Under the pieces are notes generated by a model, which was given only the letters and a program-made list of their open reading frames with translations, was not told where the DNA came from and ran no database searches. A program made the translations under genes and the position numbers. From a virus: a DNA stretch of 44,101 nt. The stretch spans positions 1 through 44,101 of the IMG/VR virus record IMGVR_UViG_3300009408_000482; one strand, written 5' to 3'. Shown piece after piece: positions 2,400 to 32,833 of this stretch (positions are counted from its first letter, which is position 1; every line of letters starts with the position of its first letter).

Positions 2400-3602
2400 A
2401 TGCCTGATGTCACATATGGACCTCTGAAGACGTTCGACAGCGGTGCGAGTCAGACTCGTTGGATTAACATAGCGAAACTGACTGCGACGACAGCTCTGGT
2501 GGTATGGCGGGAGGATACGCAAGCGTCTCCGAACAAAGGCTCAGCCTATGTAGCCACGATTTCCGGGACGGACATTACCTTCGGCGCGAAGAAGACCATC
2601 GAGGATGTGAGTGACATGGAAATCAGGGCGCTGAGTTCCACCAGTGCTCTCATGTGTTTCTTCGGTAACGGAACAAACACAGGCAGGAGCAGGGTACTTA
2701 CGATATCCGGCACGGACATAACCGTTGGCGCGGCACACACACACCAGAACGAGAACTCGGCTTTCAACATTATTGCATTGCTTAGCCCCACGAAATTCGT
2801 AGTTGGATACCGCGACCAGACACCGACGGCGGGGTCTGGGGCGGCCAGAGTGGGCACCATATCCGGTACGGACATAACCTTCGGTACACAGGCGGATTTC
2901 GCACCGGGGGGCATATTGGGTGCACTGCCACACATGGTGGAAATTGATTCAACGCACTGCGTGGTCTGCTACAGCGACTCCGGCGACACATTCCGCGGGG
3001 TCGCCAAAGTAGGGACCATATCAGGCACGGATTTGACCTTCGGCACCGGGACACAGTTTCAACCCAATGCCAACAGCTCCGGTGCGTCGAACATATCATG
3101 TGATTTTCTGGACACAAACAAGTTCGTCGTAATGTACTTCAATTCATCCTTAAAGGGCGCATGTAAGATAGGGACTGTGTCGGGGATCACCATCACATTC
3201 GGTGCGGAGGCGCAGTGGATGACAGGTACACCAACGGGAACTCTCAGAATCAGGCCGCAATACTGCACGAAGCTCGACACGGACAGTTTCTTCGTCATAT
3301 ATCAGGACAACACCGACTCCAACCACGGCACCGGAAAGATAGGCACCGTGTCAGGGACAACGATCACATACAGCGCGGAGGTGGAGTTCCTGTCCGTGAA
3401 TGGAGTTGAACACATGGGGTTCGACATACTCAGCTCCACGGTGGGATTGGTTGGGTTTGAGGACACATCGGACACCAACAACGGGAAGCTTACGGTCGCC
3501 ACATTCTCAGGACTGGTGCCGTCAGTGTCCTTCACCCTCCTCCTCGCGCCGCCGAACCTCCAAGGCAACATAGACACCCACATCGGAAAGGGGATGCAAT
3601 AA
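2400..3602 (+). CDS. Beta-propeller-like repeat protein, 400 aa (putative receptor-binding or virion surface)
   Basis: ATG 2400 follows CTAGGAG. The protein is built of six to seven repeats of roughly 50 residues. Each has a strand such as TKFVVGYRD or STHCVVCYSDSG, then the signature (V/A)xTISGTDITFG. Such repeats suggest a beta-propeller or solenoid, as in adhesins and phage receptor-binding proteins. The same unit recurs in the middle of the giant protein at 27578-32833. No signal peptide or membrane segment is seen. GC is lower and Arg codons are mixed compared with flanking genes, so transfer or domain sharing is likely. It ends one base before the next ATG, so it is probably cotranslated with the fibre gene. 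Function is inferred. Confidence 0.8.
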   Translation: MPDVTYGPLKTFDSGASQTRWINIAKLTATTALVVWREDTQASPNKGSAYVATISGTDITFGAKKTIEDVSDMEIRALSSTSALMCFFGNGTNTGRSRVLTISGTDITVGAAHTHQNENSAFNIIALLSPTKFVVGYRDQTPTAGSGAARVGTISGTDITFGTQADFAPGGILGALPHMVEIDSTHCVVCYSDSGDTFRGVAKVGTISGTDLTFGTGTQFQPNANSSGASNISCDFLDTNKFVVMYFNSSLKGACKIGTVSGITITFGAEAQWMTGTPTGTLRIRPQYCTKLDTDSFFVIYQDNTDSNHGTGKIGTVSGTTITYSAEVEFLSVNGVEHMGFDILSSTVGLVGFEDTSDTNNGKLTVATFSGLVPSVSFTLLLAPPNLQGNIDTHIGKGMQ

Positions 3603-3603
3603 C

Positions 3604-5394
3604 ATGCCGCTTCACATAAGACGAGGCTCTTCGGGCCAGTCGGTCCCGATGGTAATGCTTCTGTCCGCAGACGGGACGCCGGCCACAGGTCTCGTGTCCA
3701 CCACACTTACGGTGACATACGTAAGGAACTCGCTCGGGTTGGTCTATACGACCCCTATAAGCAATGCAGGCGTGGCGCTCGACGCCGGCAGCCTCACGCA
3801 TCTCGACAACGGCGTCGGGGAGATAGGCGCGACGGGCACCCCGGGACTCTACAGGGTGGACTTCCCGGACGCGGCCTTCGCCACAGGCGCCGCGGACAGG
3901 GTGTATCTGGTCGTGACCGGACCAACCATAGTGCCGGCGACGAGGGAGGTGTTCCTCACGCAGTCGGACGACAGATTGTCTCCATGGGACGAACTGCGCG
4001 CGTCTCACACCACGGCGGGCACGTTCGGAGAGGGCGCGGCATCCGTGCAGGGCAACGTCACCGGCAGCGTCGCGTCCGTCACTGCATCGGTCGTCACGGA
4101 CGCCGCGTCGCGAACCGCATCCCAAGCCGACGTGTCATCCCTCGCCACGTCCGCCGCGCTGGGGACTGTGGGCACCAACGTGGGCTCCATCCTGGTGGAC
4201 ACCGCCGAGATAGGCACGGCCGGGGTGGGACTCACCAACCTGGGTGGGATGTCAGCCGGAATGACCACGCAGGTCAGGACCGAGGCGGACTCCGCGCTCG
4301 ACGACACCGTGGTCGTCAGACGCGCCACGGCGCAGGCGGGATCGGCGACGACGATAACTCTGGACGCGGGTGCGTCGGGCGTAACGGACTTCTACAAGGA
4401 CATGACCGTACGCATCGTGTCAGGCGCGGGAGCGGGGCAGTCGCGCGCCGTCACGCTGTACAACGGCACCACCAAGGCGGCCACCGTGGCTCCGGCGTGG
4501 AAGACGAACCCGTCCGCGACATCGGTGTTCCGCATCCTGTCGAACACGGCCACGGGCTGTGTGCTGGGCGATGTGCTCGGCAACGTGCAGGGGGACGTGC
4601 AGGGCGGCGTGCTCGGCTCCGTGGCCACGGTCACGGCGTTGGGCGCGGGTTCCATCGTCGCCGCCAGCTACGCGGCCGACGCCATCACGGCCTCCGCCAT
4701 AGCCACCGACGCGTTCGGCGCGCTGGAACTGGCCGCCGACGCCGCCGTCGAGATAGCGGACGCCGTCTGGGACACGCTCAGGTCGGCGCACACCGCGGTG
4801 GGCAGCTTCGGCGAGGGCGTCGCGTCCGTGCAGGGCAATGTTACGGGTTCCGCGGCATCCGTCACGGGGGCGGTCGGCAGCGTGACAGGCAACGTCGGCG
4901 GCAACGTGAGCGGATCGACCGGCTCCGTGCTGGGTAACGTGAACGGCAGCGTGGGCTCCGTGGTTGGCTCAGTCGGGAGCGTGACAGGCAGCGTCGGGAG
5001 CGTCGTCGGATCGGTCGGCAGCGTCGCTGCCGCCGTGACCGTCGGCACCATGCAGGCAGGCGTCATCGACGCAGCGTCCATCGCGGCAGGTGCGGTAACT
5101 GCTGCCAAGTTCGCGGCGGGGGCGGTGGACGCCAACGCCTTGGCCGCCGACGCGGCTCAGAAGATAGCTGACGCGATGCTGGCGACTACCGTGGACACAT
5201 TCAACACCGCGGATGTGGCGTTGACCACTACAGCTTCAATGCGTCAAGCCATGTCCATCATGCTCAGCGCCGTCGCAGGCGTGACAGCCAATTCAGGTGC
5301 GCTTCTGAAAACGCCTGATGGCACAAGCAACAGGATAACGGCGACATTGCTGTCGAACGCCAGGACAGCCATGAGCCTCACACCCAGTACATAA
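3604..5394 (+). CDS. Tail fibre-like protein with Gly/Ser/Val repeats, 596 aa
   Basis: Residues 1-130 form a beta-rich N-terminal domain that may anchor to the virion (VMLLSADGTPATGLVSTTLT). A linker with WDELRASHTTAGTFGEG and SVQGNVTGSV follows. A small beta domain (DMTVRIVSGAGAGQSRAVTL, about 260-310) is a type I know from many phage fibres. The WD.LR.SHTAVGSFGEG linker is repeated near 390-410, followed by strict valine-spaced repeats (GSVGSVVGSVGSVTG, about 415-480) that would make a fibrous beta-helix or triple-stranded stalk. The C-terminus is Ala/Thr-rich. It follows the repeat protein by one base and precedes a holin-like gene, as fibre genes often do. No catalytic site is visible. 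Confidence 0.85.
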   Translation: MPLHIRRGSSGQSVPMVMLLSADGTPATGLVSTTLTVTYVRNSLGLVYTTPISNAGVALDAGSLTHLDNGVGEIGATGTPGLYRVDFPDAAFATGAADRVYLVVTGPTIVPATREVFLTQSDDRLSPWDELRASHTTAGTFGEGAASVQGNVTGSVASVTASVVTDAASRTASQADVSSLATSAALGTVGTNVGSILVDTAEIGTAGVGLTNLGGMSAGMTTQVRTEADSALDDTVVVRRATAQAGSATTITLDAGASGVTDFYKDMTVRIVSGAGAGQSRAVTLYNGTTKAATVAPAWKTNPSATSVFRILSNTATGCVLGDVLGNVQGDVQGGVLGSVATVTALGAGSIVAASYAADAITASAIATDAFGALELAADAAVEIADAVWDTLRSAHTAVGSFGEGVASVQGNVTGSAASVTGAVGSVTGNVGGNVSGSTGSVLGNVNGSVGSVVGSVGSVTGSVGSVVGSVGSVAAAVTVGTMQAGVIDAASIAAGAVTAAKFAAGAVDANALAADAAQKIADAMLATTVDTFNTADVALTTTASMRQAMSIMLSAVAGVTANSGALLKTPDGTSNRITATLLSNARTAMSLTPST

Positions 5395-12634: not shown

Positions 12635-13030
12635 CTGATCCCCGATGAAGGTCGGCGCATCCTATCGGATCCATCCGATAAGGTCGGCCGCCCATGTGTC
12701 ACGCGCAGCGTAATGTCACGATGGATGAGGGTCCGGTAATGCGCATCCACCTTATCGGACCCGCGCATCTTCCCGGACCATAAGTTCCATTGGCTGATGA
12801 AAAGGACCCGAACCCCTCCGGGGGCCTCAGAACAGGGGTGTCCGTTTACGGGAGGACTCGGACAGTCCGATAACAGGATAACCGGGTCCGGACCCCTCGG
12901 GGCCCCGATGTTATCGGACCATGGGAAAAGGTGTCCCTGAACGGTGTCCGTTCGCGCAGGGATATGCGGACCTCGACCGTCCGAAAGGCCAGACCCCCCC
13001 AGCGTACAGACCCCGTGGGAGGGATCGCGT

Positions 13031-13091
13031 GAAGGAGGGACGCCCCCGGAGGGGGCGGCCGGATCCGATGTCCAAGGAATTCGACCGTCTC
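13031..13091. repeat. Palindromic element plus duplicated KEFDRL module, copy 2
   Basis: A palindromic element (13037-13060) preceded by GTGAAGGAGGGACG, as at 2043, is followed by the second copy of the AAGGAATTCGACCGTCTC module. Confidence 0.75.
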
Positions 13092-13287
13092 ATCACAACC
13101 CGGGGATCAGGGTCGCATTCCGCCCCGTCCGGTAATGGGTGGCGGGGCAGCCCCCTGCGGCCGGCCCGTCCGGCCCCTGGCGGCGCGGGGGGGGCTAGTA
13201 AAAGACCTCGTCACAGAATGGGGAGGGGTGTTTATGCGGAGGCTGGTGGCGAGTATGCCATGATGCGCACCACGCTGGCCGCCCCCT
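13092..13287. other. Non-coding GC-rich spacer
   Basis: No supported gene. It contains a G/C run (GGCGGCGCGGGGGGGGC) and GC-rich half-palindromes related to the repeat family. Open frames here are repeat-driven and lack ribosome sites. Confidence 0.55.
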
Positions 13288-13341
13288 GGCCGCCCCCTCC
13301 GGGGGCGTCCCTCTTCGAACGGGTAACTGCGGGGGGCGTCC
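13288..13341 (-). repeat. 54-bp perfect inverted repeat, right copy
   Basis: Exact reverse complement of 11562-11615, including a full 36-bp palindromic element in minus orientation. Confidence 0.9.
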
Positions 13342-13345
13342 CCCC

Positions 13346-13398
13346 TTCACGCGGTTCCTTCACGCGGTCCCTTCACGCGGTTCCTGCACGCGGTCCCT
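13346..13398. repeat. 13-bp tandem repeat, four copies
   Basis: TTCACGCGGTTCC, TTCACGCGGTCCC, TTCACGCGGTTCC and TGCACGCGGTCCC follow head to tail. The unit resembles the GTTCACTGCATCC repeats near 12001, which suggests a shared origin. Confidence 0.88.
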
Positions 13399-13474
13399 GT
13401 GTGGTCCTCGACCCCATGTCCCGCAGTTGCTTGGACCGCGGATGCCTTCAAACGGTTTCTCTCCGTGTGTCCGT

Positions 13475-13687
13475 TCATGCGTCCTCCCCCATGCCATCGC
13501 ACCTCTCCCTCAGCTCCTTAGCGGCGGCGAGGGCGCGTGGGACGGAGCATGGGGAGGTGTGGGGAACATTGTCGCCGCAAGTACGACCGCATCCGCCGCA
13601 GTTGCACGACCCGTCACTGCAGTCCTCCGCCAGCTCCTCCAGCAGGTCTGCGATCTCAGTGTTCGTCATTCTGATTCTGGACATCAT
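13475..13687 (-). CDS. Small Cys-rich metal-binding protein, 70 aa
   Basis: ATG 13687 (second ATG 13684) has a strong GGAGGAGG site upstream and TATAAT further up at 13741-13736. A helical acidic start (TNTEIADLLEELAEDCSDGS) leads into a dense Cys cluster (CNCGGCGRTCGDN, about residues 30-42) and a C-terminal helix (RALAAAKELRERCDG). The Cys spacing could hold a zinc or iron-sulfur site. It is the only supported gene within about 2.7 kb of repeat-rich DNA and runs opposite to the flanking genes. Role unknown. Confidence 0.72.
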   Translation of the reverse strand: MMSRIRMTNTEIADLLEELAEDCSDGSCNCGGCGRTCGDNVPHTSPCSVPRALAAAKELRERCDGMGEDA

Positions 13688-13735
13688 TGCCTCCTCCGAG
13701 CATCTGCCGGCCCTCCTGGGGCGGCCTGTCCTCCC

Positions 13736-13757
13736 ATTATACACGCCCCGCTATAAT
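13736..13757. promoter_or_regulatory. Divergent TATAAT pair
   Basis: Minus-strand TATAAT at 13741-13736 serves the 13687 gene (leader about 45 bases). Plus-strand TATAAT at 13752-13757 points into an ORF-free, hairpin-rich tract. No strong -35 for either. Confidence 0.5.
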
Positions 13758-14194
13758 TGTTCACCGGGGCGGCGCGGCCGTCCCGACGCGGGGTGGTCAG
13801 GTGCCCACTCCGGCGACGCGCCCGTTAGTGCGGGCGTCGCCCGTGCGTTAATCCGTGGCTGTCACGGACGATACACACAAAGCGCGCGTCGCCGGGACCA
13901 AGCCTCCGCCACGCAAGGCCGGCGCGCGGCAATGTCGCTTGATCGCGGCGCGCGGGTCCGTTCGCGTGACTTCGGGACACCGTCCCGTCGCCCGAGTCCC
14001 CCGGCAGGGGGATCGCCGTCCGGCGTAGGGAGCCTGTCTCGCTTGGGGTGGATCGAGTTGTCGGCCACCTGCCCCAAAGTGAAGCCAATGACATGGGTGC
14101 GCGCCTTCTTGGCTGCGATGTGTGATTCACGCCTGCGGCGTGCCCCGGCACAGGGAACACCGGTGAGCCCTGAAGCGGCGCAGCCGCGCGGCTC
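13758..14194 (+). ncRNA. Hairpin-rich tract, candidate structured RNA
   Basis: No protein-like frame: the open plus frame uses Arg, Ser and Pro-rich low-quality sequence and loses the AGG bias. Many perfect inverted repeats are present. An 11-bp stem (13810-13820 with 13885-13895) encloses hairpins 13821-13834 and 13852-13868. Further stems: 13973-13987 (CGGGAC/GTCCCG), 13997-14012 (TCCCCC/GGGGGA), 14083-14088 with 14109-14114 (AGCCAA/TTGGCT), 14128-14142 (CACGCC/GGCGTG), and nested 14165-14194 (GAGCC/GGCTC around GCGGC/GCCGC). A plus TATAAT lies just upstream. This is the size and pattern of a structured RNA; strand and class are unproven, and I do not recognise tmRNA, RNase P, SRP or 6S motifs. 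Confidence 0.4.
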
Positions 14195-14214
14195 GGGAAA
14201 CGATTTTCGCGGGA

Positions 14215-14220
14215 TAGAAT
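14215..14220 (+). promoter_or_regulatory. TAGAAT -10 box, leaderless geometry
   Basis: gaTAGAAT ends five bases before ATG 14226 (and two bases before ATG 14223). No Shine-Dalgarno site precedes the methyltransferase gene. No clear -35. Confidence 0.62.
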
Positions 14221-14225
14221 GGATG

Positions 14226-15779
14226 ATGGAGACATACCCCAACCACCCGATAGCCGACGTGTTCCCGATGATGCGGGAGGATGAACTGGTCAAGCTCGCG
14301 CAGGACATCCTCGACAACGGCCTGCTGAACCACATCACCCTGTTCGAGGGCAAGGTGCTGGACGGGAGGAATCGCATCAAGGCATGTGCGATGGTGGACG
14401 TTGTTCCGCAGGTCGCGGAGTACGCGGGGGATGATCCGTTGGGGTTCGTGATATCGCAGAACAAATACAGGCGGCATATGACCCCAAGTCAACTCAGTGC
14501 CACTGGAGTGGACGCCGAGAAGCAGTACGCCGTCCTTGCCAGGGATAGACAGCGGAAGGCTGCGGCTTTGGCGAGGTCGATGGCGGACGAACACAAGTCG
14601 CGCAAGATCACTCGGGCAGACAACTGCGTGATTCCTCCGCAGGATCCGGAACTGCGCAAAAAACTGGGCAAGGCGATATGCGACATGCATGGATTCCCGC
14701 ACAATGACGAAGTGGGCAACATGATGATCGATATATACTCCAAACCTGAGCCGGAAATTGACGAAATCAAGGCTTTCAAGGATGCCAAGACGACATATGT
14801 ATACTTTGTCAAGGATGGCGACAAGGTGAAGATCGGTCGATCTGACGATCCCGAATCGCGTGTGTGTGACCTGCGTACAGGTAACCTTGATGTGTCGCTC
14901 ATTGCCCAATTCGAGTGTCCGTCGCCCAAGACCGAGACGGTACTTCACAAATTGTTCGCCGAACACCGCATCAGCGAGGAGTGGTTTAGGTTATGTCCTG
15001 ACATCGAGAGATTCATTGCTTTTGTCAATTGTGACAAAAGCAGGTTTTCCGTCCATGCAAGGGTAATGGTATCCAAAGTCTTGGGTGTATCTACCGGGAT
15101 GATCGGCAACGCGAAGAAACTAAAGTCCGAGAGTCCTGAACTGTTTGCGCAGGTCAAGTCCGGCGAGAAGACTCTTTCACAGGCAATGCGTGACCATACC
15201 AAGACAAAGGCGATGGCGAATGTGAAGCCGTTGCCCGACGGCACCTACGGTGTCCTGTACTGCGATCCGCCGTGGACATACGACGACAAACTCGCCATCG
15301 ACGAGGGCGACAGCGCATACGGCGGGGCGGAGAGGCACTATCCGTGCATGACGATGACCGATCTGAAGGCGTTGGACGTGCCAAGGCTCGCCGCGAACCG
15401 GAGCGTGATGTTCATGTGGGCCACGGTCCCATTGCTTCCGCAGGGGCTTGAGCTGCTGAAGGCATGGGGATTCGAGTACAAGACACATTTCGTGTGGCAC
15501 AAGATGGCGCACAACGTCGCCCACTACAGCAGCGTCCGCCACGAGCTCCTGCTGCTCGGCACCAAAGGGTCATGTCTTCCAAGGCCTGTACCCGGGACGG
15601 ACTTCTATGGCGTGGCGAAACTCATACCGAGTGTGCAGGACATCAAGCGCACGGGACACAGCGTGAAGCCGGCGAGGTTCAGGGAGATCATCGACCACCT
15701 GTACCCGGGCGGACCCAGGATTGAGTTGTTCTCCAGGGGGGATGTGCCGGATGGATGGAACACATGGGGAACGGCGTGA
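14226..15779 (+). CDS. ParB / GIY-YIG / MTA-70 adenine methyltransferase fusion, 517 aa
   Basis: Three domains. Residues about 5-95 are ParB/sulfiredoxin-like (HPIADVFPMM, GLLNHITLFEGKVLDGRNRI). Residues about 187-255 are a T5orf172/GIY-YIG-type domain (TTYVYFVKDGDKVKIGRSDD, TETVLHKLFAEHRISEEWF). Residues about 335-517 are an MTA-70-type methyltransferase with motif IV DPPW near 347, TVPLLPQGLELLKAWGF, and a GHSVKP segment; this class methylates adenine N6. After the GIY-YIG part comes SKVLGVSTGMIGNAKKLK, the helical linker that normally joins ParB to the methylase, so the GIY-YIG unit is inserted in that linker. Codons around 14700-15180 are visibly less GC-rich. Start at ATG 14226 (or 14223) fits the -10 spacing; the open frame back to 12921 is repeat DNA. 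Likely DNA modification, perhaps protection from host restriction. Confidence 0.88.
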   Translation: METYPNHPIADVFPMMREDELVKLAQDILDNGLLNHITLFEGKVLDGRNRIKACAMVDVVPQVAEYAGDDPLGFVISQNKYRRHMTPSQLSATGVDAEKQYAVLARDRQRKAAALARSMADEHKSRKITRADNCVIPPQDPELRKKLGKAICDMHGFPHNDEVGNMMIDIYSKPEPEIDEIKAFKDAKTTYVYFVKDGDKVKIGRSDDPESRVCDLRTGNLDVSLIAQFECPSPKTETVLHKLFAEHRISEEWFRLCPDIERFIAFVNCDKSRFSVHARVMVSKVLGVSTGMIGNAKKLKSESPELFAQVKSGEKTLSQAMRDHTKTKAMANVKPLPDGTYGVLYCDPPWTYDDKLAIDEGDSAYGGAERHYPCMTMTDLKALDVPRLAANRSVMFMWATVPLLPQGLELLKAWGFEYKTHFVWHKMAHNVAHYSSVRHELLLLGTKGSCLPRPVPGTDFYGVAKLIPSVQDIKRTGHSVKPARFREIIDHLYPGGPRIELFSRGDVPDGWNTWGTA

Positions 15780-18525: not shown

Positions 18526-18835
18526 GACCGCGATATCCCCGGAGGACAGGGAAGTCATCGACGATGTCGTGAGGAATTACAACGCACAGCCGTCGAGATG
18601 GCACAGATACGGCAGGGATTTGCTGTCGTCGGCGGGCTTCCCACAGAACTGGAACACCGCGTTCGGCAAGGAGTTCGAGGCGCATCTCGACTCCGAGGCT
18701 GTGTGCGACGCGCAGTTGGCGTCCATCATCAGGTTCTACAGGGATAACGGGACCGACCTGCGCGTCAGGTTCCTGCTGAGATCCACGACGTCCATGTCCA
18801 CACATTCGTTCCTGCGAGGCAGGCTGAATGCCTGA
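18518..18835 (+). CDS. Possible terminase small subunit or packaging protein, 105 aa
   Basis: Start uncertain. TTG 18518 overlaps the stop of the acidic gene and gives a clean protein from ETAISPEDREVIDDVV. ATG 18365, with AAGGAGAG upstream, would add 51 low-complexity residues. The body is helical (VVRNYNAQPSRWHRYGRDLL, DAQLASIIRFYRDNG) and basic at the end. It overlaps the terminase large-subunit start by eight bases, the usual place of a small subunit, but no HTH motif is clear. Function assigned from position only. Confidence 0.55.
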   Translation: MCETAISPEDREVIDDVVRNYNAQPSRWHRYGRDLLSSAGFPQNWNTAFGKEFEAHLDSEAVCDAQLASIIRFYRDNGTDLRVRFLLRSTTSMSTHSFLRGRLNA

Positions 18836-21154: not shown

Positions 21155-23215
21155 ATGCCCGCCAAGATAGAACTTCCGAAGAAGAAGGACGACGTCACGC
21201 TGGTCAAGGTGCTCGACAACGCCCTGTCCCAGATAGAGCAGGTCAGGAATCCGCACTCCGTCGAGTGGCTCGTCAACCACTGGTTTCTCAAGGGTGCCAG
21301 GGGCTTCCGGCGGCTCAACTACCTCAACGGCAGCATAGACGGGCAGATCGCGTTCGAGGACTCCCGGGGCAAGCTCAGGTTCAAGTATGAGGGTGCGTTG
21401 GGCATGGTCCAGACCAAGGAGGGCCAGCTAGGGAACATGGATCTCGGACCGTCCGTGACCGCGAAGCCGTTCAGCCTCGACGCTCAGAGACGCGCCGCCG
21501 CCGGGAAGGTGTTCTTCGACAATGTGTTCCCCGCCGACAAGACGAACGATCCGGCCAAACTGGCCAAGCAGAACATACTGCACTACGGCATCGTCGGCAT
21601 GATGCCCGAGTTCGACAGGTGGCCGGACGGATCCAGCACATACTCCATATCCATCATACCTCCGTGGGAGCTGGGGTGCATGCCTGTCAATGTGTCCAGC
21701 CCGAGCGAGGCATCCGCCATAGTGCGCGACAGGTGGGTCAGCCTGGAGTGGCTCAAGGCGCAGCCGGAGTTCAAGCTTCCCGCCAAGGCCAAGACGCACG
21801 ACCTGAAACCCATAGACGTTATCTTCGGCACCACCCCGAACAGGGTGCACGGCCCCATATCGTCCCCGTCCGCGGGCGTGGTGACCGACACGGTGAACTC
21901 GGTGCTGAACAAGGGACGCGGCAAATCCGGCACCGGGAGGTCCACCTCCCCCCATGTCAGGCTCGTAGAGGTCTGGCAGAAGGGGCTGGAGGCACCGTCC
22001 GGCTACACCCTCAAGAGATACATAGCCAAGGTGGGCGACGTCATCATCAGGGACGAGACGTTCGGAGACATCAAGTGGGCCGAGGCCAACCCCGACAAGC
22101 CGCTTCCGCCGCCGTTCCCGATAGGGATCGCCAACTGGTTCAATGTCGGCTTCTACGGACGGCCGTTCGTCACGCCCATCGTCGAGGTCACGAACGAGGT
22201 GGAGGAGTTCCTGTCGTCGTATTTCCGCAACATCGCGTCCGTCAACTCGATGGGAGCGTTGCTCGTGCCGGCGGGCATGGGTCTGGATCACAAGCGGCTG
22301 AAGAACCAGGGCGACATGAAGGTCATAACCTATTCGCCGAACCCACTCCTGCCGGATGCGGCGCCGCAGGCCATACAGCCAGTCAACTCAGGGTCCGCAC
22401 CCGCGCAGGCCGCGCAGTTGGCGCTGCAGTTGGCCAACGACATGGGGGGCACCGGGGGACTCATAGCCGGGAACACAGGCAGGCTGGACAGCAGGAACGC
22501 CATCGAGTCCACGTTCAACATCCAGAACATACCGCTGGACGCGCCCGCGAGATCGCTGTCGGAGGCGTTCGCCCAGGTGTACAGGGCGATAATGTACGAG
22601 GCGAGGGTCAGGTTCACGGAGGCCGACAGGCTGGAGCTGGTGTCGTTCGACGAGGCCGCCGCCGGACTGAGGATAGACAAGGACGGCACCGTGAAGCTGG
22701 ACAGCACGGGACTGCCCTGGCCGCACCAGGTCAATGTGAACGTGAAGAACGCATCCGTGGAGGCGAGGACGAACGCGAAGCAGGAGGCTCTGGAGTCCCT
22801 GGTCGCCGGCATCATCACGCCGTCCCAGTTCTGGATACTCAACTTCAAGAAGGAGTTGGGTTACGTTCCGGGCGTCAACGAGGACATCAGAGGCCAGGTG
22901 CAGACGGCGCAGCTCAACAACCTCACGCTGTTCTCGGACGGCGAGACCCCGGGCGAATTCATATACTCGCCCCAGTCAGACAACCCCAACATCCTGCTCC
23001 AGATAGTGAACGAGTTCATGGGTCAGACGTTCTATAAGAAGTCGTCCGTCGAGGTGAGGGAGGCGTTCGAGTCCTACAAGAGGATACTCATAGAGTCGGT
23101 CGGCGGTGAATTCCCGGAGCAGATCCCGAACGCGGAGGACGCGGCGGCGCAGCAGGAGCAGTTGATAGCGAGGCTGCAGCAGCAGCAGGCCCAGCAAGGT
23201 CAGCAAGGTCAATAA
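21155..23215 (+). CDS. Portal (head-tail connector) protein, 686 aa
   Basis: Forms the dodecameric ring at one capsid vertex through which DNA passes. Order, length and sequence character fit podovirus portals: a helical charged start (TLVKVLDNALSQIEQVRN), the WFLKGARGFRRLNYLNGS segment, IIPPWELGCMPVN, NWFNVGFYGRPFVTPI, a long EVTNEVEEFLSSYFRN helix (stem/crown region), and a Gln-rich C-terminus (LQQQQAQQGQQGQ). GGAGG lies eight bases before ATG 21155. Placed between terminase and scaffold, as expected. No catalytic site is expected. Confidence 0.87.
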   Translation: MPAKIELPKKKDDVTLVKVLDNALSQIEQVRNPHSVEWLVNHWFLKGARGFRRLNYLNGSIDGQIAFEDSRGKLRFKYEGALGMVQTKEGQLGNMDLGPSVTAKPFSLDAQRRAAAGKVFFDNVFPADKTNDPAKLAKQNILHYGIVGMMPEFDRWPDGSSTYSISIIPPWELGCMPVNVSSPSEASAIVRDRWVSLEWLKAQPEFKLPAKAKTHDLKPIDVIFGTTPNRVHGPISSPSAGVVTDTVNSVLNKGRGKSGTGRSTSPHVRLVEVWQKGLEAPSGYTLKRYIAKVGDVIIRDETFGDIKWAEANPDKPLPPPFPIGIANWFNVGFYGRPFVTPIVEVTNEVEEFLSSYFRNIASVNSMGALLVPAGMGLDHKRLKNQGDMKVITYSPNPLLPDAAPQAIQPVNSGSAPAQAAQLALQLANDMGGTGGLIAGNTGRLDSRNAIESTFNIQNIPLDAPARSLSEAFAQVYRAIMYEARVRFTEADRLELVSFDEAAAGLRIDKDGTVKLDSTGLPWPHQVNVNVKNASVEARTNAKQEALESLVAGIITPSQFWILNFKKELGYVPGVNEDIRGQVQTAQLNNLTLFSDGETPGEFIYSPQSDNPNILLQIVNEFMGQTFYKKSSVEVREAFESYKRILIESVGGEFPEQIPNAEDAAAQQEQLIARLQQQQAQQGQQGQ

Positions 23216-24230: not shown

Positions 24231-25715
24231 ATGGCACAGATCATGTCGACATCCGGAGACGTGGCCAGCGCGATAGTGCAGGCCATCGAGCCGGGCATCC
24301 AGGACTGGACGGTCCACAAGGCCGATCCCGTCTTCATGAACCTTTTCACCACCAGCAAGGAAGTGGTCAAGTCCGGCTTCGGACCCGGCTACGTCTCGCG
24401 GCGCGTCTATCAGGACGGCCTCAGCGGTGCCGCATGGTACACGGACGCGCTCGGCGCGGCCGAGGCCAACGTGACCGCCAGCACCGTGGGTTACGCCGCG
24501 GCCGCCGTGTACCCGGGACTCGACGAGTACCGTGACGCGACGACCTTCCAGAGGACGCTCGCCATCACCCGACTGGTCGGCAACCTGATCCTCCCGCTCG
24601 ACGTCCTGCGCGCCAACGCGCTGGACAGCGCCGTGGGGGACATCGTCGGCAAGCGCATCTCCTCGGAGGCCAAGCGCATCTCGCACATGAGGACCAACTT
24701 CATGTACGCGGACACCGACAACTCGCTCGGCTCCGTGGCCAGCATCACGGCGGGCGGCACAACGTCGGACTCGACGGCCACCATCACACTCACCCGCGTG
24801 AGGGCACGTCAGCTTCCCGGAGGCATGCCCATCGAGATTTGGGCAAGTGACTTGACATCGCGCAAGCATTCCGCCGGATCGCCCATCTCCACGACCAAGG
24901 CCATCTGCCAGGTCGTGTCGTACGACACCAGGACGGAGACCCTGAAGCTGTCGCTGCTCAACTCGGCGACATGGTCCGCTGACTTGGCGGCCGGCGACAA
25001 GATCTTCATGCAGAACCCGAGCACGGACGCAGGCACGGACATGAGCGGCGGAAACCGCTTCAACCTGCCTTTCGGCCTGTTTGATCAAATAAAGGAGAGC
25101 GGTACCATATGGTCAGAGGGCGGGCAGTCGGGCATCGATCTCGCGGTCAGGCCCAACTTCTCCTCGCTCGCGGTCGACAGCGGCAATGTGTTCCTGACGG
25201 AGGATCAGCTCCATAAGGACTACGGTGCTTTTGATGACCGGTATTCCGGCATCGACGGCGCCGAGGTCGACACCGCCCTGACCACGAACGGCGTCATGGT
25301 CGGGCTGCTAAACAATCAGGCCGGATCGGAGACCCGCGACCGCAACGGGTTCACCCGCAAGGCCAAGATGGGATGGACTGTCTTCTCGTTCACCTACGGT
25401 GGACGCGAGGTGGACATCCAGATCTCCCGCTCGCTGCCGAAGGGGACATTCGTGTCCTTCAAGACGGCCGACGGGAACTTCAAGGAGTTCGTGCCTCCGG
25501 GTCTGGCGCGTGAACGCGAGGATGGAAGCAAGATCCCCGGCGTCAAGTTCGTCAACCCGGAACTCGGATACCCGGACATCTTCAGCCCGTTGCTGACGAC
25601 CTCCGGCGCGACTACGGAGTTCAAGCAGGCTCCCTTCGGCGTGTACACGCAGGTCGCGTTCGACCAGCCGATGGGCATCATCAGGACCAACATCAAAGAG
25701 GACCTCAGCTCGTAA
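24231..25715 (+). CDS. Major capsid protein, 494 aa
   Basis: HK97-fold candidate by position and composition. The N-terminal arm is helical (SGDVASAIVQAIEPGIQDW), followed by DPVFMNLFTTSKEVVKSGF, a beta-rich P-domain-like stretch with AAAAVYPGLDEYRDATTFQR, and a long helix (VLRANALDSAVGDIVGKR). A Thr/Ser/Ala segment near 160-260 may be an inserted domain. The C-terminus is beta (GVYTQVAFDQPMGIIRTNI). 494 aa is longer than the T7 capsid protein. Lies after the scaffold, with AGGAGAG before ATG 24231 and a terminator 25 bases after the stop, so high, discrete expression is likely. Confidence 0.87.
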   Translation: MAQIMSTSGDVASAIVQAIEPGIQDWTVHKADPVFMNLFTTSKEVVKSGFGPGYVSRRVYQDGLSGAAWYTDALGAAEANVTASTVGYAAAAVYPGLDEYRDATTFQRTLAITRLVGNLILPLDVLRANALDSAVGDIVGKRISSEAKRISHMRTNFMYADTDNSLGSVASITAGGTTSDSTATITLTRVRARQLPGGMPIEIWASDLTSRKHSAGSPISTTKAICQVVSYDTRTETLKLSLLNSATWSADLAAGDKIFMQNPSTDAGTDMSGGNRFNLPFGLFDQIKESGTIWSEGGQSGIDLAVRPNFSSLAVDSGNVFLTEDQLHKDYGAFDDRYSGIDGAEVDTALTTNGVMVGLLNNQAGSETRDRNGFTRKAKMGWTVFSFTYGGREVDIQISRSLPKGTFVSFKTADGNFKEFVPPGLAREREDGSKIPGVKFVNPELGYPDIFSPLLTTSGATTEFKQAPFGVYTQVAFDQPMGIIRTNIKEDLSS

Positions 25716-26432: not shown

Positions 26433-27350
26433 ATGGCCACTCTGGTGGACTTCATACAGCGCGTCAGGGACTTCGTCAACGAGTCCGGACTCAACGCCAA
26501 GTACACGGACGCGAAGATACTGCGTGAGATAGAGAGCGCGTACTCCCTGGTCATCCCGGAGCTGTTCATGGTCGGCGGATCCTTCGCTCTCGTGAACGTC
26601 GACATCAAGGTGGTCTCAGGGCAGGCGTCATACGCCCTTCCGCCGCACGTCGGCCAGATACTGAGGCTGGCCAAGGTGGACGGTAACGGCAACATCCAGT
26701 GGGACTTCACGCCCAGGTCGGTGTGGAACCCGGCCGGATACGGAGTGAGGGTGAACCCGCCGAACATCGTGTTCGATCCACCGTGGCAGCGCGGGGAGAC
26801 GCTTCGGCTGACGTATCTGCCCACCGGGGAGATCAGGTTGGCGGAGGGCCCGCTCGACGCGGCCAGCACTGCGTCGTCGCTCGTCCTGGGTACGCCAACG
26901 AAGGGCGCGCTCGGCACGCACCAGGAGGAATACGCGGGATACAACGTCACGCTGACGGACGCGAACGGGGATCAGGAGACGTTGTTCGTGGACTCCTCGT
27001 CCCGCGCGGCCGGCGCGCACACGCTGACGGTCATGCCGTCCGCCACGCTGAGCGTCGCCGCGACCACAACGTACGAGGTCGTACCCGTCGTCAGCGAGGC
27101 CGTGAAGACAGCCGTCGTGTCGCTCGCGGCCAAGAACATCGCGGGCAGGGAGGGCAGGCAGGACAGGGAGGCCGGCATACTCAGGCAGTACCAGCTCCAC
27201 ATCAGGCAATTGATGCTGCAGCACGGAAACATCGAGAACATACTCGGCCAGCACTTCACGGCCGACACCTTCGACAACGACAGGTTCGCGGGATCCAGGT
27301 TCTCGCACTTCAGGACCAACACGGACGGGACCACAACCGTCGGACTGTAA
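26433..27350 (+). CDS. Adaptor (tail tubular protein A-like), 305 aa
   Basis: The N-terminus has the pattern of podovirus adaptors that join portal to nozzle: VDFIQRVRDFVNESGLNAKY, TDAKILREIESAYSLVIPEL (an alpha-helical 'inEa..rytd..i...i..ay' type start). A beta segment (SYALPPHVGQILRLAKVDG) and a small domain with DANGDQETLFVDSS follow. The C-terminal helix bundle (VKTAVVSLAAKNIAGREGRQ) ends in a flexible Thr-rich tail. GGGGGAG precedes ATG 26433. Located directly after a head gene and before the nozzle-like gene, as in T7 gp11-gp12. Confidence 0.7.
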   Translation: MATLVDFIQRVRDFVNESGLNAKYTDAKILREIESAYSLVIPELFMVGGSFALVNVDIKVVSGQASYALPPHVGQILRLAKVDGNGNIQWDFTPRSVWNPAGYGVRVNPPNIVFDPPWQRGETLRLTYLPTGEIRLAEGPLDAASTASSLVLGTPTKGALGTHQEEYAGYNVTLTDANGDQETLFVDSSSRAAGAHTLTVMPSATLSVAATTTYEVVPVVSEAVKTAVVSLAAKNIAGREGRQDREAGILRQYQLHIRQLMLQHGNIENILGQHFTADTFDNDRFAGSRFSHFRTNTDGTTTVGL

Positions 27351-27577: not shown

Positions 27578-30500
27578 TTGCCCAGGAACTCGAACAGATC
27601 GTGGCCGTACGACAACTTCCGCAAGATGTCCGTGGACCTCTCGCAGACGCGTCAGACAGCCGTCGGTCCGCCCAGGCTCGTCGGCGTGGACGGCAGGGAG
27701 TTGGGCGGCCTGCGCAGGGACGTCGGCTTCAAGTCGCTTCAGTTGAGTCAGGTCGGACTGCTGCAGACGCAGGCGAGGGCGCCGACATGGTTCTCCGGAT
27801 TCGAGATACAGAAGGGCGTGGACAAGAAGAACCTGATACGCGGGTTCGCGTTCCTGGACGGCTCGTCGGTTCTGTTGCATTGGTACGACACGCAGACCGG
27901 AACGTTCCCACTGCCGCATTTCGTGTCCACGTCGTTCACCGGAACGGCGGATGATCTGGATCTAACGGTCAGGGGCAAGTTCATATACATAACCGGCGTC
28001 GGCACGGCAGGCGCGCCGATGGTCGTGTGGCACGACGGCACTGACTGGATGATGGAGGACATGGGTCCGCTGATCCTCGACGGCTGGGTCCCGGCCGCCG
28101 CGCCCACCGCGCAGGCAACGGGCGGACTTCTTTCGGACGGGGACTACCTCGTAGCCGTCAGGAAATTCAACTCCGAGAGAGGCGTGTTCGACGGGACATC
28201 CAAGTTGCAGTCAGTCTCGCCCGCCAGCGCCACCACGACGCAGATCATAACATGGGAGGGCCTACAGGCCGCCAACGGTTTCGACCAGGCATACCTGTAC
28301 AGGAGTGTCAGGAGCGGCACTACCATGTATCTCGAGAGCATATTGGATCTCCCATCCGCCGGATTCGTGTTTCCAAATTTTGGCAGCGCCACGTTGGGAC
28401 TCACCGATCAGCAACTGCAACTGCAGGACACATTCGAGCCTTTCGTGGATCCGGTCAGGAAGCCGCCCAAGACCGACAGGATAAACACCTTCCAGGGCAT
28501 CACAGTGATGAAATTGACGGGCGATGACGCGGGCGAGCAGGCCGTGACCGACCTGATATGGACCAAGACGGAGAGGGTCGCCCCGGAGGAATTCGGACCG
28601 GACAACGTGTATCCAGGCCCGTCCAACATCGGATCGGTGATCCAGTTCATAAACGCCGGGGACTTCCTTCTGGGCATCACGCCCGTGTCCACCATACGCA
28701 TACAGAAGGCCGGCATCGACATGGCCATACAGCCCATCCACAGGGGATGGGGACCACTGTCCAGATACGCCGCGGTAGACTTCGGACCGGCTGTGATGAT
28801 AGCCGGCCCGAGGGGCCTCTACTTCATCGAGGCATCGTCCGGCAGGCTGCAACTCATCGAGGCCGTCGACAGGCTGATGACCAACAACGACGAGTGGCTG
28901 CTGGACATACTCGCCGATCAGGGCAGCGCGGGCGCGCCCAACATACAGTTGGCGTACGACGAGCCTCTGGGATGCATATTCATCCTGAACTCGGTCAAGA
29001 AGGAGGCGATCTGCTTCTGGACCAAGACCTCGCGGGTCACCATCAGGGAGGACATGCCGTTCACGCTGGCCACCACGGCTGTGCATCCGGTCACAGGCGG
29101 AGCCAGACGCGCCATGTTCGCAGGCATCGCCACGGGCGGATCGCCCGCGTTCGTGCAGGCCGACAAGGTGTTCTTCCCGGACTCGTTCCGCGAGGGACCG
29201 GACGTGACACCCACATTCGAGAACCCCGGCATGCAGACCATGCACGGCGCGCTGAATAAGGCCACGAAGGTCAACGGTCTGGCAACGGGAGGCACGGTCG
29301 AGTCGCTGATAGACACCTCGAACACGTTCGGAATGGAGGTGTTCGGCGCCTTCGTACATGTGTGGCAGACGATAGGTGGCGTGGAGACAAGGACGCGAGT
29401 GTTCGCCGTACCGGCCCCAGCCTTCGTGTTGGACGACTTCAACAGGGCCGACGCGCCGGATCTGGGACCCAACTGGAGTCAGACGGGTTCAGGCACGTCC
29501 GACTACTGGAACGTGGACTATTGGTCCGCCGACTATTGGTCCGCCGACTACTGGGCATCGTCGTCCGCATTCGCGATAGCCGTGTCCGGATCCAAGGCGC
29601 TGGGCATCAACATCAACGCCGGAGCCGTGGAATACGCGGCCATATGGAACACGGCTGTCCCGGCGGCAAGCTACGACGTCGAGGCATCGTTCACAGCCGA
29701 CGCCGCAGCATTGCCTTGGTTCCAACTGCATGGCCGCAGGATATCGAAGACCGAATTCAACACGGAGGGTTACCTCATGACGGCGGCAACGAAGACCGCC
29801 GGAATAGCCGGACGCACACTGACAGCGGACACGGTCAATCTGGAGTATGTCAGCCCGGTCAACACCAAGACACTTATCGGAAGCGTGCCATTCGCGTTCG
29901 TGTCAGGCACGACATATACGCTGAAGATGGGTTTGAGGAACAATGTCCTGACCGCGCTCGTGGACGGAAAGGAAGTCCTGCGCAGGGTGGTGGATGATCA
30001 GGCCATCGTGGCAGGTCCACAGTTCAAGAAGGATGATCTGCTGTCAAGCACATTCTCCGTGGACAGGGTGGACTCGAACAGGATGGTCGTGTGCTACAGC
30101 GAGGACTCGGACAGCGCGCTTTATGTCAGGATAGCCACCGTGTCCGGCACGGACATCACATGGGCGGCGAAGTCGCCCGTCGTCGCGACACCCGGAGGTT
30201 TCTTCGCCGATGTCGCCGCCGTGGACGTCAACACCGTTCTTGTCGGATTCTTCGACGCGAATGCCGGTCCGAACGGCGGCGAAGGCAAAATAACAAAGTT
30301 CGCACTGACCGATACGACATTGACTATCAACAGCACATCCACGTTCGCGCCGTCCGTAAACACGCTGGAGGGAGCGAGATACATAAAGCTGGCCAGGTTC
30401 GACTCCGGCACATACGGAATAGCATGGATCGATTGGGAGAAGGACGGGTTCGGAATCGAGAAGAAACTCACGAGGGCGAGGATACTGACGGCTGTCGGAC

Positions 30501-32833
30501 CGATTTCGATGGGTCCCACAGTCGACATACACTCAGGCAGGACGAACGACTTCGGTGTCGAACTGATTCCGTTGACGTCCACCACGGCCATCGTCACATA
30601 TGCGGACTCCGACGACGACAACAAGGGGAAACTAAAGGTAATCACAGTGTCGGCGGGCATCATCACGCAGGGACCGTCCGTGACCTTTCACGGTTCCGCA
30701 GGGGGCATATCCAAGGACATATCATACGGCGCCGCGAGATGGTCCGACACCGAAGCCGTCATATCGTTCAATGCGGTGCTTGAGCAGGACTCGAGGTCAG
30801 TCGTGATCACGGTGTCCGGCCTGGACGCGACGATTGGCGCGGTGTCTCAGCCCGCCAAATTCGCGAACAAGGCCGACTGGGTGGACATGGACACGGTGGG
30901 GGACGACGCGTTGTCGTTCGGCGCTAACCAGGAGTTCTCGCCCGCGCTCTCCGGCACCTCCGACAATTTCGCCGTGGCGTCACTGTCGTCCACCAAGGTG
31001 GTCGCCGCGTATCTCGACAATTCGTCGGTGGGCAAGATCATAGTCGGAGACGTGACGGGTATAACCGTCACATGGGGTCCGGCGGCGGGCACTACATTTG
31101 GCGGATCCAGGAACATATCCATATCCGTGCTGTCGTCCACCAAATGCGTGATGTCATGGATAGATCTAGTGTCGGCGCAGCCCTTCGCGGTGGTAATCAC
31201 CGTGACAGGTCTCTCCGCGACACTTGGCGTACAGACCAGCTCAGGTCAGATAGAGAGTCCGGCCAATCCGGTGCATGAGCAATGGACGACGGCCATGGAC
31301 TCGACACATGCGATCATAATGTGGAAACTCACTGGCGCCAGCGCCGTAAAGGCCATGGCCATGGCCATCTCAGGCAGCACGATATCCACCGGCGTGTTCG
31401 CGAATATCAACAATCCGTCGGGAAACCATCCGCAGGGCATCAGGGTGGAGTCGCTCGACTCCACGAGATGGCTCGTCGCCATGTCGAACGGCGGCGGCAA
31501 CGAAGTCATACTGCAGACCGGGGATCTGGCGGGCCTCACCGTCAGCGCCGGCGCGTCCACCACACTCCAGGGCGGATCCGGGGCCACGCCCGCGCAGATG
31601 TCCTTGAGGAGGTTGACGTCCACCACCGCAGTGCTGGCGTTCCAGAAGAACAACGGCGCCGATTGGTCCGGAAAGGTCGCGGTGATAACCGTCACTGGCG
31701 CGGATGTCACCGCAGGACCGGTTTCTACATTCAAACACGTGTCCGAGGCCGCGATAGTCGGCTTCGATGTGGCCGTAATGACCCCCACGTCATTCAGCGT
31801 ATCATGGATGGACTCGGGGGCGGGCGACACGGGAAACTCGATACTGGGCACCGTCTCCGGCACGTCGCTTTCGTTCCCCGCGCCGAGTCAGGTGTGGTTT
31901 GTGAGCGAGCAGACGGGCGGACTTACAAACAACATAGTCAGAAACGCGCCGCTGGGCGCGTCGTCGTTCATCGCATTAGCCCAGAATCAGGTGGCCGACG
32001 CAGGGTTGGCGTTCATCGCACAGGCCACAGGACTGACGGGTAAGCGTCTGGTGTTGACCTACAGGGATGTTGGCGCCGACAATTTCGGGAAGGCCAGGAT
32101 AGGCAATGTCGTGTCGGGAGAGGTTGTGTGGGTGGAGTACAGCCAATTCCTGTTCCCGACCACCCCCGCGCAGATAGCGTCCAACTCGGCGGACGCACGG
32201 ATAAACCGCGTCACGCATGTGGACTTCGACACGGCGTTCGTGTTCACCAAGGACGCCGGCGACGGCGGCAAGGGCAAGGCCATACTCCTTGAGGTACCGA
32301 CGCTCGGCGCCGCGCAGATATTGCTGAGTGGCGGCTTCGCCGGCTTTGGGATATCGTTCGACGCCGGTTCCGAGTCGGCGTCCGTCGACGACTTCCGCAT
32401 CATAGAGGAGGTCAACACGATAGGGCTTACGCCGTCGCTGCCGCAGGCGGTCGCGTCGGGCGACAGATATGCCATCGCCCCCGTCCCGTTCAGGGTGACC
32501 TTCCCGGCGCTCTCGGAGGAGGGGGCGGTGGACCATTTCCGCAGGACCATCGTGGAGACCATGAAAGGGCTGATATCCAATTACAGGCCCAATCAGGTCA
32601 CCACGGTGAACGAGAAGATGAGGTTCCAGGTGTTCAGGAACGGAAACAAGGTGGAGCACGCGGGCAAGGAAGTGAACCTGGATGTGGATCAGGACGACTT
32701 CGTGGCCTCGTTCGGCGGCGTGTCCGGGCATGTCATGCACCCGGGCATGGAGTCCTTCGCCTCGAACTCCGACATGGAGCTCATCGCCGTGCGCGTCGAG
32801 GGAGGCGTGACGGACAGCGACATAGACCAATGA
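27578..32833 (+). CDS. Giant nozzle-like tail protein with nested concanavalin-like and repeat domains, 1751 aa
   Basis: TTG start at 27578 with GGAGGGG before it. Residues about 1-610 resemble a podovirus nozzle (tail tubular B-like): VLLHWYDTQTGTFPL, IYITGVGTAGAPMVVWHDGT, GLYFIEASSGRLQLIEAVD. Near 613 a LamG/concanavalin-like domain begins (FVLDDFNRADAPDLGPNWSQ) with a WNVDYWSADYWSADYW repeat, running to VLTALVDGKEVLRRVVDDQ near 803. From about 811 to 1578 there is a long array of propeller-like repeats (KVAVITVTGADVTAGPVS, SVSWMDSGAGDTGNS). Then the missing concanavalin end appears (GFAGFGISFDAGSESASVDD), and the C-terminal ~150 residues return to nozzle-like sequence (FPALSEEGAVDHFRRTIVET). 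Repeats match the 400-aa protein at 2400. Likely both tail conduit and receptor-binding or glycan-binding protein. Confidence 0.78.
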   Translation: MPRNSNRSWPYDNFRKMSVDLSQTRQTAVGPPRLVGVDGRELGGLRRDVGFKSLQLSQVGLLQTQARAPTWFSGFEIQKGVDKKNLIRGFAFLDGSSVLLHWYDTQTGTFPLPHFVSTSFTGTADDLDLTVRGKFIYITGVGTAGAPMVVWHDGTDWMMEDMGPLILDGWVPAAAPTAQATGGLLSDGDYLVAVRKFNSERGVFDGTSKLQSVSPASATTTQIITWEGLQAANGFDQAYLYRSVRSGTTMYLESILDLPSAGFVFPNFGSATLGLTDQQLQLQDTFEPFVDPVRKPPKTDRINTFQGITVMKLTGDDAGEQAVTDLIWTKTERVAPEEFGPDNVYPGPSNIGSVIQFINAGDFLLGITPVSTIRIQKAGIDMAIQPIHRGWGPLSRYAAVDFGPAVMIAGPRGLYFIEASSGRLQLIEAVDRLMTNNDEWLLDILADQGSAGAPNIQLAYDEPLGCIFILNSVKKEAICFWTKTSRVTIREDMPFTLATTAVHPVTGGARRAMFAGIATGGSPAFVQADKVFFPDSFREGPDVTPTFENPGMQTMHGALNKATKVNGLATGGTVESLIDTSNTFGMEVFGAFVHVWQTIGGVETRTRVFAVPAPAFVLDDFNRADAPDLGPNWSQTGSGTSDYWNVDYWSADYWSADYWASSSAFAIAVSGSKALGININAGAVEYAAIWNTAVPAASYDVEASFTADAAALPWFQLHGRRISKTEFNTEGYLMTAATKTAGIAGRTLTADTVNLEYVSPVNTKTLIGSVPFAFVSGTTYTLKMGLRNNVLTALVDGKEVLRRVVDDQAIVAGPQFKKDDLLSSTFSVDRVDSNRMVVCYSEDSDSALYVRIATVSGTDITWAAKSPVVATPGGFFADVAAVDVNTVLVGFFDANAGPNGGEGKITKFALTDTTLTINSTSTFAPSVNTLEGARYIKLARFDSGTYGIAWIDWEKDGFGIEKKLTRARILTAVGPISMGPTVDIHSGRTNDFGVELIPLTSTTAIVTYADSDDDNKGKLKVITVSAGIITQGPSVTFHGSAGGISKDISYGAARWSDTEAVISFNAVLEQDSRSVVITVSGLDATIGAVSQPAKFANKADWVDMDTVGDDALSFGANQEFSPALSGTSDNFAVASLSSTKVVAAYLDNSSVGKIIVGDVTGITVTWGPAAGTTFGGSRNISISVLSSTKCVMSWIDLVSAQPFAVVITVTGLSATLGVQTSSGQIESPANPVHEQWTTAMDSTHAIIMWKLTGASAVKAMAMAISGSTISTGVFANINNPSGNHPQGIRVESLDSTRWLVAMSNGGGNEVILQTGDLAGLTVSAGASTTLQGGSGATPAQMSLRRLTSTTAVLAFQKNNGADWSGKVAVITVTGADVTAGPVSTFKHVSEAAIVGFDVAVMTPTSFSVSWMDSGAGDTGNSILGTVSGTSLSFPAPSQVWFVSEQTGGLTNNIVRNAPLGASSFIALAQNQVADAGLAFIAQATGLTGKRLVLTYRDVGADNFGKARIGNVVSGEVVWVEYSQFLFPTTPAQIASNSADARINRVTHVDFDTAFVFTKDAGDGGKGKAILLEVPTLGAAQILLSGGFAGFGISFDAGSESASVDDFRIIEEVNTIGLTPSLPQAVASGDRYAIAPVPFRVTFPALSEEGAVDHFRRTIVETMKGLISNYRPNQVTTVNEKMRFQVFRNGNKVEHAGKEVNLDVDQDDFVASFGGVSGHVMHPGMESFASNSDMELIAVRVEGGVTDSDIDQ

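Follow-up and report, generated by a model that had tools for sequence, protein, structure and literature searches.

The open reading frame at positions 27578-32833 (+) of the window, a 44,101-base stretch that comprises an entire IMG/VR virus record, encodes 1751 amino acids in a single frame without a stop, with a TTG start and a GGAGGGG Shine-Dalgarno-like motif upstream, and we consider it likely (probability of about 0.72) that the product is the nozzle of a divergent short-tailed phage carrying a nested adsorption module of ~1,000 residues whose likely role is to recognise a glycan or a receptor. A preliminary description had proposed a conduit protein with an inserted receptor- or glycan-binding module, nested at three levels. 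All three levels are found and the count must be corrected to four, as the module itself lies inside a small hairpin domain of the nozzle; the comparisons below show the nesting, the repeat family and an insert-free homologue, and from them a nozzle fold and glycan binding are proposed.

Of the inner levels, the beta-sandwich had been described as a LamG/concanavalin domain at residues ~613-803 with its last strands displaced to near residue 1585. The strings on which that description drew are located at residues 616 (FVLDDFNRAD), 793 (ALVDGKEVLRR), 1585 (GGFAGFGISF) and 1600 (SASVDDF). A search of viral contigs for the motif DDFNRxNGxLGSxW returned 19 stretches, from which 15 uninterrupted domains (L125-L143) were cut for a profile. 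This profile matches the ORF twice, residues 618-802 to profile positions 2-141 and residues 1584-1607 to positions 149-171 of 175, so that the two matches are complementary, ordered and free of overlap. With the C piece appended to the N piece the score climbs from 25.4 to 36.5 bits, a gain of 11, and the best completing window among ~1,450 that were slid along the chain starts at residue 1582 (others away from that site: mean 26.0, maximum 31.3); none of 1000 shuffles of the C piece reaches the joined score (maximum 33.2 bits). The Pfam family DUF7257 (E=6.6e-4) gives 16.3 bits for the N piece alone and 19.8 bits for the joined pieces, both below the curated cut-off of 27, and the best stretch of the joined match crosses the junction. 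Judged by profile, residues 613-811 (29414-30010, +) and 1580-1611 (32315-32410, +) are thus one split lectin-type domain, whose chain is interrupted immediately ahead of the final strands and picks them up on the far side of the propellers, much as the preliminary description had it. The family profile also matches the solved levanase chains 4b1l, 4b1m and 4azz (E about 5e-6), which are the CBM66 fructan-binding beta-sandwich; the term lectin-like is used here on the basis of this match, and the sandwich of the ORF may likewise bind sugar. Within its first piece residues ~642-661 (29501-29560) form a tandem DYWNVDYWSADYWSADYW repeat.

The insert in the sandwich, refined to residues ~812-1579 (30011-32314, +) within a ConA-type domain of residues 613-1611, consists of ~768 residues of blades of ~50 amino acids, the best of which end in a (V/I)(T/S)GTxxTxG-like motif. 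These match the blades of a stand-alone ORF in this genome (2400-3602, +), which is 400 residues long, has seven blades and belongs to the same propeller family. A DNA pattern for the blade motif matches many viral contigs, and the spans of the repeats in the ORFs of those contigs fall into two peaks, at 300-400 and 700-800 amino acids, corresponding to 7 and 14 blades, with the length of the insert fitting the 14-blade class. Individual scores are reached by only some blades of the insert, and the count of ~14 comes from length and model. The AlphaFold2 model was computed with propeller rows only, from 25 fourteen-blade relatives, because MAFFT misaligned mixed rows of sandwich and propeller. 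Its pLDDT is mostly 70-88 across most of residues ~826-1440, and weaker at ~1085-1110, at ~1210-1235 and in the last blades of the insert. The best solved Foldseek matches of this model are proteins such as Elp2 (E about 1e-11), which have double seven-bladed propellers, with TM-scores that are low as a result of comparing the entire chain, low-confidence parts included. The ~770 residues of propeller-like repeats that had been noted earlier are therefore borne out by repeat family, modelled blades and structural matches, and the insert is probably a tandem pair of seven-bladed propellers. Other family members are found in proteins that have collagen repeats and further traits of fibres. In the window the stand-alone propeller adjoins a 596-residue protein rich in GSVxGxVGSV repeats (2400-5394, +), and the two are probably another adhesin pair.

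A second case of a propeller within a sandwich is provided by a fibre-like viral protein (L093:4968-8927, +), in which a LamG-like domain is broken up by a ~350-residue propeller of the above family with seven blades. The chain also has an intact LamG copy, whose alignment to the split domain continues across the point of excision (25% identity over 220 columns, E=2e-5). The insertion there is near the start of the domain, the LamG is of another type, the protein is fibre-like and only one propeller is involved, and the two cases together imply that on at least two occasions a propeller of this family has become inserted in a sandwich of lectin type.

Evidence for the outer levels comes from a relative in which they are encoded without the module. 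A search with the terminase of the window in 396 genomes of one phylum gave a single relative, 33% identical, on a contig with homologues of the portal (E=1e-75) and capsid (E=5e-26) in the same order; the contig ends before the nozzle. A two-row terminase alignment then led to four related viral contigs, among them record G400, of 55,673 bases, whose two ends each have part of the capsid gene, so that the record is apparently circularly permuted. G400 encodes an 884-residue homologue (L172:11960-14611) that holds the equivalent place in gene order, is without the ~1,000-residue module and matches residues 18-224, 247-520 and 1575-1738 of the ORF (phmmer E=2e-24 overall). The joined outer parts score 300 against it, as compared with a maximum of 81 in 300 shuffles. 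Since the relative encodes these parts contiguously, both flanks of the ORF, residues 1-519 (27578-29134, +) at the N-terminus and residues 1612-1751 (32411-32830, +) at the C-terminus, belong to one protein, and since ~35 residues separate the last two matches in the relative and ~1,050 in the ORF, the module is an insertion; its loss from the relative is a less likely alternative. The earlier claim that the sequence on both outer sides is nozzle thus holds as far as a single protein is concerned, with the identity as nozzle coming from gene order and a weak profile similarity.

The point of insertion can be placed closely. The best restart of the C-terminal part is at residue 1607-1611 (score 89, with a maximum of 60 elsewhere), and residues 565-612 of the ORF joined to 1613-1638 align without a gap to ..NGTATATSSSTLTDANATL..SREILTASGGVFAFTEVF..TGDTYAVSPVPF of the relative, scoring 90 where the halves give 44 and 54; none of 2000 shuffles reaches the joined score. 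From this gapless alignment we conclude that the module sits in the hairpin of a small nozzle beta domain, whose first half follows the end of the N-terminal part in residues 520-612 (29135-29413, +), a segment that aligns when joined to residues 1612-1638, and whose second half opens the C-terminal part, giving the fourth level of nesting. The alignment to the relative through residues 18-520 also disposes of one candidate, namely that the propeller-like repeats are the channel propeller of the nozzle itself, as the relative aligns there without them.

Several further features of these related phages were observed. At ~238-410 of the 884-residue protein the relative has ~170 residues as against ~36 in the protein of the window, including a stretch that matches phrog_165 'tail sheath' (E=4e-6); this is perhaps a second variable insertion point, possibly the nozzle tip. 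The terminase of another related phage (L169:9932-12985, +) carries a ~455-residue insertion beginning CFTGDTEVYTPMG that looks like an intein. On two related contigs (L166 and L167) the capsid gene is followed by parallel-beta-helix-like proteins, some in tandem, in place of the adaptor-nozzle order, and additionally by a LamG-like protein in L166; both contigs end in that region.

Assignment of the outer parts to a tail nozzle draws on the surrounding genes. The window encodes a terminase at 18828 (PHROG E=3e-41), at 21155 a protein that weakly matches portals and, at 24231, a putative capsid protein named by its position after the portal, an order that is kept in the relatives. The gene preceding the ORF, at 26433-27350 (+), is an SU10-type adaptor (PF24175, E=8.8e-6, 26.7 bits, just under the cut-off of 27), and a homologue of it (E=8e-26) precedes the nozzle of the relative as well. 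Adaptor homologue, nozzle and a homologue of the protein at 41178 follow in this order in both genomes, the long proteins downstream of the nozzle may from their position be internal virion proteins, and the neighbourhood reads as that of a short-tailed phage. A two-row nozzle alignment gave a weak match to phrog_3287 (probability 11%, E=0.003), a family that includes a protein annotated as 'stabilization protein'. The match lies at GWGPLSR..GPRGLY, a motif earlier used to find the family, so that only the row of the relative is independent. On this gene order and weak profile similarity the outer parts are probably a tail nozzle, which would have a platform and a seven-bladed channel propeller, the latter perhaps contained in the stretch from residue ~350, and would assemble as a hexamer that forms the DNA gate.

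Searches of the outer parts against PDB, Pfam, PHROG and NCBIfam gave no match, solved nozzles included, and AlphaFold2 from the single sequence of residues 1-612 had a pLDDT of 32. A DNA pattern for the nozzle found one 490-residue family of the phrog_3287/stabilization type (L144-L147), too distant to align with a single sequence, and its use on bacterial genomes yielded nothing that phmmer could match to the nozzle parts; a DNA pattern for the terminase was without hits. Among phage records there was no match to the whole protein or to the nozzle part, portal, capsid, adaptor or internal-virion protein, and terminase matches were distant only, while single-protein scans of viral and bacterial contigs gave no match. 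Elsewhere in the window, a 952-residue frame at 12921-15779 (+) matches, within a single chain, MT-A70 DNA methyltransferase, MUG113/T5orf172 nuclease-type and, weakly, ParB-like families, and its first ~430 residues may be non-coding.

In view of these results it must be asked whether the ORF might instead encode an adhesin, either a large tail fibre or a tailspike-like protein, in which the outer parts common to it and the relative serve as anchoring domains. The domains inserted here are of kinds commonly met in fibres and minor tail proteins, the outer parts match no solved nozzle, and their single-sequence model has a pLDDT of 32. We nevertheless regard such an adhesin as unlikely, since the 884-residue homologue has no recognised binding module and follows a separate fibre gene with propeller and collagen features directly after the adaptor homologue, since both genomes would be left without an identified nozzle, and since the weak profile match to phrog_3287, with its member annotated as a stabilization protein, is co-located. 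Somewhat less improbable, though still the minor option, is a purely structural insert that lengthens or braces the nozzle without binding a receptor, as the domains of the SU10 nozzle or the 'crass domain' of crAss001 do; both the crAss001 muzzle and the SU10 nozzle carry large inserted domains for which no receptor binding has been shown (PMC10172136, PMC9509320), but the families of both modules of the ORF are otherwise met in fibres, minor tail proteins and a carbohydrate-active enzyme.

An artefact of assembly, in which a fibre gene was joined into a nozzle gene, has to be considered because the exact architecture occurs in one record only, a second copy being found neither among phage records nor in scans of viral and bacterial contigs. 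It appears very improbable nonetheless: the reading frame is uninterrupted over 1751 codons and across four boundaries, all of which coincide with the edge of a domain or strand, G+C is uniform (60% in the insert and 62% in the nozzle part), the sandwich is interrupted and completed at precisely the right strands, and an independent propeller-in-LamG case is provided by L093. We therefore retain the nozzle with a nested adsorption module as our preferred reading.

Nozzle-type proteins with insertions have precedent. T7 gp12, SU10 gp17 and P-SCSP1u gp23 (PMC6702177, PMC9509320, PMC10575957) follow an adaptor gene, as does the ORF, are similar in total length to its ~750 non-insert residues and belong to families that accept insertions between propeller blades; the solved nozzles have no detectable sequence match to the ORF, and their insertions are tip, Ig-like or dock elements whereas that of the ORF is a lectin-type module with propellers. 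The fibre dock of T7 gp12 connects its propeller with the C-terminal platform (PMC6702177); the SU10 nozzle has its fibre-dock loop as an extension of blade 1, and its tip domains enter between blades 2 and 3 (PMC9509320). The muzzle protein gp44 of crAss001 (PMC10172136) is likewise of nozzle type with large inserted domains, placed in the channel propeller and built from several chain segments, but these are Ig-like domains and the 'crass domain' rather than a CBM66-like sandwich with a double propeller. Together with SU10 it establishes that proteins of this type tolerate large insertions. By profile, DUF7257 (PF23918) of actinophage minor tail proteins and the levanase CBM66 belong to the same sandwich family as the split domain, yet the collected DUF7257/CBM66 domains are uninterrupted and that of the ORF is split by ~768 residues.

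The closest working parallel is the evolved Dit (evoDit) of lactococcal skunaviruses, in which inserted carbohydrate-binding domains aid adsorption (PMC10688798). In evoDit (PMC10688798, PMC6669499), as in the ORF, a module of carbohydrate-binding type lies inside a conserved component of the tail channel and the N- and C-terminal parts align to an insert-free form, the 884-residue homologue in the present case. The ORF can thus be viewed as an analogue of evoDit, a likeness of principle and not membership of the Dit family, for evoDit is a siphophage Dit rather than a putative podovirus nozzle, its inserts in the cited phages are of 168-319 residues as opposed to ~1,000 that are themselves nested, and its role in adsorption has been shown. 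The principle is known; the host protein (a nozzle), the size and the depth of nesting are unusual, and a search of open papers turned up none that describes a nozzle with a module of this kind, although this does not prove that none exists.

How such a protein might work can be sketched. The module of ~1,000 residues would be inserted into the hairpin of the small beta domain that separates the putative channel propeller from the C-terminal part, and would comprise a DUF7257/CBM66-like beta-sandwich with ~14 blades, most probably a pair of seven-bladed propellers, set in just ahead of its last strands. Were the protein a hexamer like known nozzles, six arms, each of a sandwich and a double propeller, would surround the tail, perhaps near the place where T7-type fibres dock, a position suggested, by analogy only, from the site of insertion. 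The module would likely serve to recognise a receptor such as a surface glycan, either in place of a separate fibre or in addition to one. Receptor binding and channel opening would then reside in one chain, with a covalent path from receptor contact to gate, and the cell-gripping element probably belongs to the very component that opens.

The relative offers a possible counterpart. Between adaptor and nozzle, G400 has a gene for a 777-residue protein that combines repeats of the sortilin/BNR type with a collagen-like stretch and looks like a propeller fibre in its own right; the corresponding slot in the window has only an ORF of ~69 codons, and a propeller module lies within the nozzle. The most economical interpretation is that the conduit chain has itself taken on adsorption. 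We tentatively suggest, as a possibility that falls short of an even chance, that the nested module replaces the separate propeller fibre of the relative and that binding to the receptor exerts a direct pull on the chain by which the channel is closed. Such replacement would be functional and not by descent, as the propeller of the G400 fibre and the insert of the window belong to different families. The true receptor binder could also be the second propeller protein of the same genome (2400-3602).

It is difficult to test how receptor binding triggers the opening of podovirus nozzles, since the fibre and the gate are distinct proteins with a non-covalent connection. If the present reading is true, a binding module within the nozzle chain makes the coupling directly testable, with the insert-free relative as a natural control. 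The ORF would then extend the principle of the evolved Dit to podovirus-type tails and document stepwise growth of one domain within another, from hairpin to sandwich to double propeller.
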